Shown one piece after another: positions 6,613 to 19,843 of a stretch of 25,929 bases of DNA. The position numbers and the translations under genes are program-made. The notes below the pieces were generated by a model. The model was not told the DNA's origin. It saw only the letters and a program-made list of their open reading frames with translations, and did no database searches. Location of the stretch: positions 1 to 25,929 of the IMG/VR virus record IMGVR_UViG_3300040960_000750; one strand, written 5' to 3'. The stretch comes from a virus. Position 1 is the stretch's first letter; each line of letters begins with the position of its first letter.

Positions 6613-7044
6613 TTAACCTTGTGCTGGTAATGCTATTGCTAATGTAGTTGCAGGGTTTGTTCCTGTTTCTTTTACTTCAGGAATGTTACCAATGCCATAT
6701 ACAGCATTAAATTCTGTGCCGCCTGCTTCGCACTGTACAGTTCTGTTACGTAGTTTTGTAACTTGATATGTTGTTGAATCAGTACCGTATGCATCAAGTG
6801 TAAATTCACCTGCTACAAGTGCTTCGCCGCCAGCTGTGCCTGCTTTGTTAGCTAGTTTTAAGATTTCATCTCCAGTATGTGGAGCAGTTGATGAATCTAA
6901 ACGTACAACATACTTACCGTTACCTGCTTGGCGAACGATATGAGCTGCTGTGGTTGCTTCTGCACTGCCTGTAAAAAAGTGGCGTGTAACTGCTATACGG
7001 CCTGCACCTTTGCCGATCTTATCTTTGTTAATTGGACGTCCCAT
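6613..7044 (-). CDS. Small virion-like protein of the fibre operon
   Basis: This 143-residue protein begins MGRPINKDKIGKGAGRIAVT. It has a basic N terminus and a beta-rich body (GKYVVRLDSSTA, EFTLDAYGTDSTTYQVTKL). It resembles the MGRP-start small structural proteins encoded near fibre or head genes of marine T4-like phages, although I cannot assign a T4 number. A strong AAGGAG SD lies before the ATG. The leader contains a small GCGG/CCGC hairpin and a late-promoter-like GATAAATAC about 65 nt upstream, so this looks like the first gene of the fibre-region late operon that runs down to position 1. Confidence 0.7.
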   Translation of the reverse strand: MGRPINKDKIGKGAGRIAVTRHFFTGSAEATTAAHIVRQAGNGKYVVRLDSSTAPHTGDEILKLANKAGTAGGEALVAGEFTLDAYGTDSTTYQVTKLRNRTVQCEAGGTEFNAVYGIGNIPEVKETGTNPATTLAIALPAQG

Positions 7045-7105
7045 TGTTTTCTCCTTAATGACGTTTTAGGTCTACGCGGTGGGTTTCCGCATAAATCTAT
7101 ATAAA

Positions 7106-7114
7106 GTATTTATC
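7106..7114 (-). promoter_or_regulatory. Putative late promoter heading the fibre operon
   Basis: The minus strand reads GATAAATAC. It lies immediately downstream of the intrinsic terminator at 7122-7154 and about 62 nt before the ATG at 7044. This arrangement insulates the fibre operon from upstream transcription and restarts it with a T4-type late element. Confidence 0.6.
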
Positions 7115-7119
7115 AAATA

Positions 7120-7376
7120 AGAAAAAAGGCCTACCACGTAATTGTGATAGACCTTCTATATAATATATGATAGGTTGGATTAAGGATTACCAACAACCGC
7201 CTCAACAGATCCTGTCTATCAATTCAGCGGAGCCTAGCATCGGATAGTTACTTCCAAAATACGCATCTTCATGTCTCCATGCTCATGCGCTGCCACTACA
7301 GCTACTAGCCAAGTTACTGCCTCTGTAAAGCAGCGTTTCCTTGCACTATCTAACTTGGACCGTCGTCTTTGTTATG
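7120..7376 (-). ncRNA. Candidate structured non-coding RNA, about 255 nt
   Basis: The stretch 7045-7439 has no convincing gene. The minus strand carries a sigma70-like promoter (7382-7409), then about 220 nt of relatively GC-rich sequence, then a strong terminator. Visible helices are 7309-7316 with 7351-7358 (CCAAGTTA/TAACTTGG), enclosing 7317-7320 with 7330-7333. GATAGT at 7345-7350 (minus) can pair with ACTATC at 7244-7249, outside that helix, giving a pseudoknot-like arrangement. Further hairpins are ACAG-ATC-CTGT at 7205-7215 inside CCGC (7197-7200)/GCGG (7227-7230), and GTTGG/CCAAC near 7174-7195. I do not recognise it as tRNA, tmRNA, RNase P, 6S or SRP RNA. Function is unknown; a regulatory RNA made from a host-type promoter is the simplest reading. 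Confidence 0.65.
7122..7154 (-). terminator. Intrinsic terminator of the 7120-7376 RNA
   Basis: Arms at 7127-7137 and 7144-7154 pair over 11 positions on the minus-strand RNA. Two positions are G-U there but would be C-A mismatches on the plus strand, which fixes the orientation as minus. A run of six U follows (complement of 7122-7127). The loop is six nt. Confidence 0.85.
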
Positions 7377-7381
7377 TACTT

Positions 7382-7409
7382 AATATAACACATACAAAAT
7401 AAAAGTCAA
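7382..7409 (-). promoter_or_regulatory. Sigma70-like promoter of the 7120-7376 RNA
   Basis: The minus strand has TTGACT at 7409-7404 and TATATT at 7387-7382 with a 16-nt spacer (a one-base shift gives 17). Predicted transcription starts near 7375. No ATG with a ribosome site follows, consistent with a non-coding product. Confidence 0.65.
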
Positions 7410-7439
7410 CCACTTTTTTAAAAAAAAATAAATATTTTT

Positions 7440-7673
7440 ATGAGAAAAGTTAATTTATTTTTTAGTCTTGCTCCGAGTCCTTTGTTCTTTTTAGGATTCC
7501 TTTGGAGTTTATATAATATGAATCACATGCAGTCAACTATGTGCGGCGGCAGTCATTGGGAAATGCCTGTGATGTGGTTAGTAATGAGCGTTGCACATAT
7601 AAGTACATGGCTAATGTGGTATCAACAAAGACGCTATCAAAAGATAAATGTTTTTCCTGACAAACAACAATGA
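7440..7673 (+). CDS. Small putative membrane protein, unknown function
   Basis: This 77-residue ORF lies on the strand opposite to its neighbours. It has two hydrophobic segments, about residues 5-26 (LFFSLAPSPLFFLGFLWSLY) and 43-61 (MPVMWLVMSVAHISTWLMW). Between them is a loop rich in Met, His and Cys (MNHMQSTMCGGSHWEM), and a basic tail follows. The organised segments suggest a real two-span membrane protein, and the loop could bind a metal. The ATG has no clear SD, and the upstream bases are almost pure A/T. Its 3' end overlaps the convergent gene by 37 nt. It could be a single-gene 'moron' cargo. I do not recognise a family. Confidence 0.5.
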   Translation: MRKVNLFFSLAPSPLFFLGFLWSLYNMNHMQSTMCGGSHWEMPVMWLVMSVAHISTWLMWYQQRRYQKINVFPDKQQ

Positions 7674-7899: not shown

Positions 7900-7930
7900 A
7901 AAAAAATAGGCCCCGTAGGGCCTATTTTAT
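7900..7930 (-). terminator. Bidirectional-looking intrinsic terminator after gp23
   Basis: A perfect 10-bp stem (7904-7913 with 7918-7927, core TAGGCCC/GGGCCTA) has a CGTA loop. It is followed by seven T on the minus strand and bordered by TTTTA on the plus strand. It begins 22 nt after the gp23 stop codon, so it should end the head operon transcript. Confidence 0.9.
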
Positions 7931-19408: not shown

Positions 19409-19843
19409 TTATATTGCCTTGTTTCTGTTTTGAAGTGCCTCTATGAGAGTCTTTGATCCGCCTACACGTACATTAATAATACCGTTATAGTATTCTTCTG
19501 TTTCTAAAACACGCCTGTCAAATTGTTCTTTAGCTTCTAAGTAAGACATTTCTGCTCTTGAACTGCAAAAATATAAAATTTCTCGTGTAAATTTATCTGC
19601 GCCTAACTGTTCCACGTCTGCTTGTAATTTGTCTGACGATCCCCAGTAGTCACGCCAGTCTGATTCTTTGTATCCACGTCTTTTATTCTTTTTGCCTTTG
19701 AGTGGTGGTTTGGTTGTTTTAAATTTTGCTAGTTTTTTGCCTATGTACTTGCGATCATTTGTTGTATTGGTTATCAGATAGACAAACCCTTCATATTCAT
19801 CTGGTATAGTGTCTATTTTTTCACCTTGATAAGTCCAATTCAT
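19409..19843 (-). CDS. GIY-YIG family nuclease
   Basis: This 144-residue protein has the GIY-YIG core as FVYLITNTTNDRKYIGKKLA at residues about 20-39 (Y-x-I then Y-I-G). A lysine-rich loop follows, then ESDWRDYWGSSDKLQADVEQ (about 60-79), FTREILYFC, and a Glu in YLEAKEQFDRR that could be the metal-binding residue. Small GIY-YIG proteins of this type accompany recombination genes in marine T4-like phages; some related proteins are homing endonucleases (T4 Seg family). It lacks a recognisable DNA-binding tail, and no intron is evident here. It may be a free-standing homing nuclease or a repair nuclease. It is last in the gp47-gp46 operon. Confidence 0.8.
   Translation of the reverse strand: MNWTYQGEKIDTIPDEYEGFVYLITNTTNDRKYIGKKLAKFKTTKPPLKGKKNKRRGYKESDWRDYWGSSDKLQADVEQLGADKFTREILYFCSSRAEMSYLEAKEQFDRRVLETEEYYNGIINVRVGGSKTLIEALQNRNKAI

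Follow-up and report, generated by a model that had tools for sequence, protein, structure and literature searches.

On comparative grounds, the minus strand of positions 7120 to 7410 of the window (the whole 25,929-nt stretch of viral DNA analyzed here) is a genuine, conserved RNA gene laid out as a separate transcription unit. We consider it probable that its product is a discrete RNA of ~250 nt that is homologous to manA, has its own promoter and terminator, does not serve as leader to the gene that follows, and most likely acts in trans. The core of the original prediction, a structured phage RNA forming its own unit with a host-type promoter and a terminator, is supported by the conservation of both signals among relatives. 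The case rests on comparison because the promoter count and the fold energy of the single sequence are near chance: 5 kb contains 16 promoter-like sites against 14.5 in shuffles, so that the window promoter alone is not above chance, and the folding energy of the window RNA is unremarkable against shuffles (z = -1.25). These weak single-sequence signals would suit an intergenic spacer in which a promoter, a hairpin, and inverted repeats coincide by accident, but the probability of such a coincidence is negligible, as the fold, promoter, and terminator are kept across many independent contigs and the comparative data already refute it.

Relatives were collected by pattern scans of IMG/VR, which gave non-redundant loci of three kinds: 45 window-like (clade A), 23 of a second type (clade B), and 98 cyanophage-like (clade C). 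The clade A and C sets were gathered with exact motifs located in the RNA's 5' portion, and those positions could not vary; the clade B motif sits mid-RNA. As originally predicted, the segment holds no gene: no ORF of at least 50 aa lies within 7120-7410, and stops are present in each of the three minus-strand frames across it. A coding role was likewise rejected among the relatives, where no open frame runs through the RNA (0/166), and an ARAGORN scan of the window returned no tRNA and no tmRNA. On the opposite strand, a 77-aa ORF at 7440-7673 (+), without a Pfam or PHROG match, abuts the promoter of the RNA, with AATAAATA at 7427. The features of the unit and its surroundings are collected in the table.

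Table. Features of the RNA unit and of the adjacent downstream unit (window coordinates)
Feature	Positions	Strand	Remarks
Terminator-like hairpin	7903..7928	-	directly follows gp23 and precedes the RNA unit
-35 element TTGACT	7404..7409	-	TTGAC kept in relatives
-10 element TATATT, extended TG, 16-nt spacer	7382..7387	-	predicted start near 7375
manA-like RNA, divergent clade of RF01745	7164..7370	-	cmscan model positions 1-192; 47/53 pairs; covariation in relatives
5' hairpin	7355..7370	-	degenerate in the window (3/6 pairs); complete in relatives, e.g., L006, L019, and L022
Closing helix, 5' strand GATAG	7346..7350	-	pairs with 7169-7173
Closing helix, 3' strand CTATC	7169..7173	-	pairs with 7346-7350
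Arm	7310..7343	-	CAAG 7343-7340/CTTG 7313-7310 around hairpin 7333-7328/7322-7317
Central arm	7234..7308	-	helix 7308-7303/7239-7234 with three hairpins
Central-arm hairpins	7302-7292; 7290-7261; 7257-7240	-	GURGUR loop in the first; inner GAGA loop in the second
Variable hairpin	7196..7231	-	
3' terminal hairpin GUUGG...CCAAC	7174..7194	-	
Intrinsic terminator	7124..7157	-	14 pairs plus U-run; specific to the minus RNA
GATAAATA resembling a T4-type late promoter, next unit	7107..7114	-	
Freshwater-2-like leader (RF02980), serving the downstream gene	7042..7113	-	separate element
Downstream gene (143 aa, MGRPINK...)	6613..7044	-	

The predicted TTGACT-16-TATATT promoter is present at 7409-7382 (minus) with 10/12 matches and an extended -10 TG, and a sigma70-like promoter is kept in 161 of the 166 non-redundant relatives across the three clades. 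Sites with at least 10/12 matches precede the RNA in 43/45 clade A, 23/23 clade B, and 95/98 clade C loci, against 3 to 6% of shuffles across the three clades (5 to 6% for clades A and B); the distance from promoter to RNA start is nearly fixed in clades A and B (7 to 10 nt), and in all 14 sequences that were read (the window and 13 others) a promoter-like sequence lies ahead of the RNA. The type of promoter suggests transcription by unmodified host polymerase. At the other end, the terminator and its restriction to the minus RNA were correctly predicted, while its stem has 14 pairs and not the 11 bp first given. Of the clade A loci, 32/45 have a terminator within 75 nt after the RNA, as do 21/23 of clade B (53/68 for these two non-cyanophage clades together), against 1 to 3% of shuffles, and only 12/98 clade C loci; an additional long-loop AGACC...GGTCTT hairpin is found in 17/98 of the latter. 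Three sequence blocks replace the terminator directly 3' of the manA-like RNA (one in L124, L174, and L211, one in L142 and L214, and one in L029 and L162); an Rfam scan of the blocks in L029, L162, L174, and L124 gave no match at the gathering score, and they are possibly further phage RNAs.

The compensatory changes that the original prediction had called for are present, in a fold that differs in part from the one it drew. In the clade A set (45 sequences), 88.8% of cells are paired and 38/60 pairs have changed on both sides, giving a covariation score of 0.418 against 0.183 for column shuffles and at most 0.120 for slid structures. In clade A, the search motif leaves the closing helix (7346-7350/7169-7173) no room to vary. 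In clade B it compensates, with 12 distinct 5-mer pairs (e.g., UGUAG/CUACA, AUUAG/CUAAU, UUUAG/CUAAA, UGAAG/CUUCA, and CUUUG/CAAAG) and 4.42 of 5 positions paired versus 3.40 after permutation, a value reached in 0 of 2,000 permutations; clade C has GGGAG/CUCCC and also GGGUG/CACCC. The CAAG/CTTG helix of the arm varies in clade B as well (CAUC/GAUG and CUAG/CUAG), and the hairpin at 7317-7333 foreseen in the original prediction is real and covaries. Two other predicted elements, the helix 7351-7358/7309-7316 and the crossing GATAGT/ACTATC pair (correctly 7345-7350/7243-7248, one position away from the 7244-7249 first given), are able to form, yet their covariation does not exceed that of shuffles (0.154 versus 0.144); both conflict with the conserved fold, where 7346-7350 belongs to the closing helix. 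The proposed pseudoknot thus finds no support in its original form: GATAG pairs with the CTATC at the 3' end instead of the internal ACTATC, in a nested helix that encloses the remainder of the RNA. Rfam bracket symbols had raised a pseudoknot reading of the closing helix itself, which was discarded since the helix is nested and folding of the window predicts the same helix. A loop-loop contact is a candidate: the GURGUR loop may pair with the one at 7252-7245, the two showing AGU.ACU in clade A and GGU.ACC in clades B and C, with exceptions. A possible loop-loop pseudoknot of manA is marked with a question mark in a 2010 paper (PMC2864571), and we assume that the same pair is meant.

The original prediction recognized no RNA family and proposed a cmscan search against Rfam; that search aligned manA (RF01745) over its full length to 7370-7164 (minus) with 36.6 bits and an E value of 3.1e-6, though below the gathering score of 55.2. 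The consensus structure is retained, with 47 of the 53 family pairs standard in the window. Because the score falls below the cut-off despite the full-length alignment, we file the window RNA as a divergent manA clade and not as a canonical member. A blastn search with it against named phages found nothing. The homologous interval downstream of gp23 that was originally proposed in relatives was found, and comparison places some of its occupants within the family proper: a manA match at an E value of at most 0.001 occurs in 13 of 50 records with a gp23 relative, five of them above the cut-off, and some relatives downstream of gp23 score 55.5 to 79.9 bits, while the clade A loci scored there are all below it. 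Clade-specific sequence profiles detected the RNA in 23/80 loci, with 32/80 having at least 1.5 kb after gp23 without the RNA and 25/80 too short to tell. A cellular origin was also considered and rejected: a scan of genome contigs with the cyanophage-type motif gave four loci, three of which have phage-like proteins, as judged from translations.

The unit that follows the RNA appears to have its own start, in view of GATAAATA at 7107-7114 and the freshwater-2-like leader at 7113-7042. TAAATA is a mark of T4-type late promoters in T4-like phages. It lies within 150 nt downstream in 40/45 clade A and 23/23 clade B loci (63/68 together) and in 32/98 clade C loci; the corresponding shuffles average 5.8, 2.5, and 17.1. 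The leader matches RF02980 with 47.9 bits and an E value of 1.4e-4, short of the gathering score of 49.9; freshwater-2 matches were recovered in 41 of the 51 records searched, above the cut-off in 24 of these 51, which makes this leader more frequent among these phages than the manA-like RNA. The gene itself has no Pfam or PHROG match.

This layout bears on the published view of manA, which was rated cis-regulatory and a probable riboswitch in the 2010 discovery paper (PMC2864571), is listed as cis-regulatory in later cyanophage papers (PMC9964418 and PMC10665884), and has the Rfam entry type Cis-reg. Applied to the window, a cis-acting riboswitch or attenuator would sense a metabolite and use the terminator at 7124-7157 as its expression platform to control whether transcription reads through into the structural gene that follows, and a structured RNA followed by a terminator is indeed the usual arrangement, just as clade C RNAs often have an ORF close behind. 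We nevertheless regard it as unlikely. An attenuator is expected to co-evolve with its terminator, and none of this was seen across the relatives: the terminator arms favor their own RNA no more than swapped RNAs of relatives (complementarity of 13.35 versus 13.72 and of 15.56 versus 15.46, i.e., equal), so that no expression platform exchanging with an aptamer was found, and there are 45 distinct terminator hairpins among 54. Taken alone, the window hinted at antiterminator pairing of the RNA with its terminator (score 19 with the 5' arm), a signal that vanished across relatives. Moreover, the RNA does not occupy a 5'-UTR, since the terminator, the late-promoter motif, and a separate leader stand between it and the gene; the terminator is replaced by tRNAs or other elements in some relatives; and the neighboring genes change, those downstream being mostly MGRP-type proteins but others too. 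In the window-type branch at least, this architecture argues against a riboswitch. In clade C, a leader role is possible, since an ORF lies within 130 nt and no terminator is detected in 70/98 loci.

The genomic setting raises another cis-acting option, a structured housekeeping transcript that insulates or stabilizes the gp23 region at its end, or that helps to process nearby stable RNAs. It would account for the position of gp23 within 3 kb upstream in 59/68 clade A and B loci (six loci have room but no gp23) and for the frequent adjacency of manA to tRNAs noted, after Rfam, in the CMCompare paper (PMC3692125). We give it a low probability, well under that of the riboswitch, as the RNA has its own promoter, gp23 is already followed by a terminator-like hairpin, and the same RNA stands at unrelated places in cyanophages. 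tRNAs lie within 300 nt of the RNA in 3/45 clade A, 1/23 clade B, and 8/98 clade C loci, against 1 to 2% of random positions, and a tRNA-Gly directly follows it in L038, L135, and S-SSM7. One manA-like RNA sits within an array of eight tRNA genes (L228:8953-10777), and a clade A contig with a manA-like RNA also has a permuted, alphaproteobacterial-type tmRNA (L124:12888-13275). The gp23 of the window is closest to those of jumbo T4-like phages (Sinorhizobium Phosso, 72%; Vibrio 2.275.O, 68%), not those of cyanophages. Elsewhere in the window, a SegE-type GIY-YIG endonuclease is encoded at 19409-19843 (-; Pfam PF19835, 5e-34), close to apparent gp46/gp47 recombination genes.

The free RNA is favored in clades A and B because of the lack of terminator co-evolution, the separate downstream promoter motif, and the changing neighbors. 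Host RNA polymerase would initiate at the sigma70-type promoter, which lies a few bases ahead of the conserved 5' hairpin; the transcript would run from about 7375 to 7121 (minus) and stop at the intrinsic terminator. It would then fold into a compact, branched structure whose closing helix zips both ends together, separate from the downstream gene with its late-type promoter motif and own leader. We infer that transcription takes place during infection, with early timing, and that the free structured RNA most likely acts in trans, with a protein or RNA of host or phage as its binding partner. Against this stand the adjacency to tRNAs in only a minority of loci (12/166) and the window's own 5' hairpin, which is half broken. 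For the family as a whole, we put at even chances the wider proposal that manA is an independently transcribed, trans-acting phage RNA of several T4-like lineages, self-contained with promoter and terminator in a non-cyanophage branch, and not a riboswitch. manA is an orphan candidate riboswitch in marine phages that are very common; should the RNA be free, searches for its ligand are misdirected, and one would ask instead for its binding partner among host or phage factors. This question is testable, as the compact promoter-RNA-terminator units are of a size that allows expression, tagging, and deletion.

Among known systems, the closest is Rfam manA, which the window RNA resembles in its full-length alignment, the same order of helices, the GURGUR loop and 3' terminal hairpin, and its occurrence in T4-like phages; it differs in scoring below the cut-off, in lying downstream of gp23 in phages whose gp23 points to jumbo T4-like phages and not to cyanophages, and in being terminated before the next gene rather than leading into it. 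The cyanophage copies (P-SSM2, P-SSM4, P-SSM7, P-HM2, and S-SSM7; 5 of the 11 named cyanophages) share a sigma70-type -10 and mostly a -35 element just before the 5' end, as well as unrelated neighbors (pstS; regA/purL; ferredoxin and carbamoyltransferase; gp32; tRNA-Gly), but score 124 to 184 bits and are usually near a downstream ORF, the S-SSM7 copy being followed by tRNA-Gly. Short hypothetical CDSs annotated over manA in P-SSM4, P-HM2, and S-SSM7 (e.g., PSSM4_169.1, PHM2_011, and SSSM7_180) are probably spurious gene calls, and a search of the main text of a P-HM2 RNA-seq study that counted intergenic reads found no manA result there. Freshwater-2 RNA, finally, lies directly downstream of the manA-like RNA in the window and most relatives and is a distinct element that serves the following gene as its leader.
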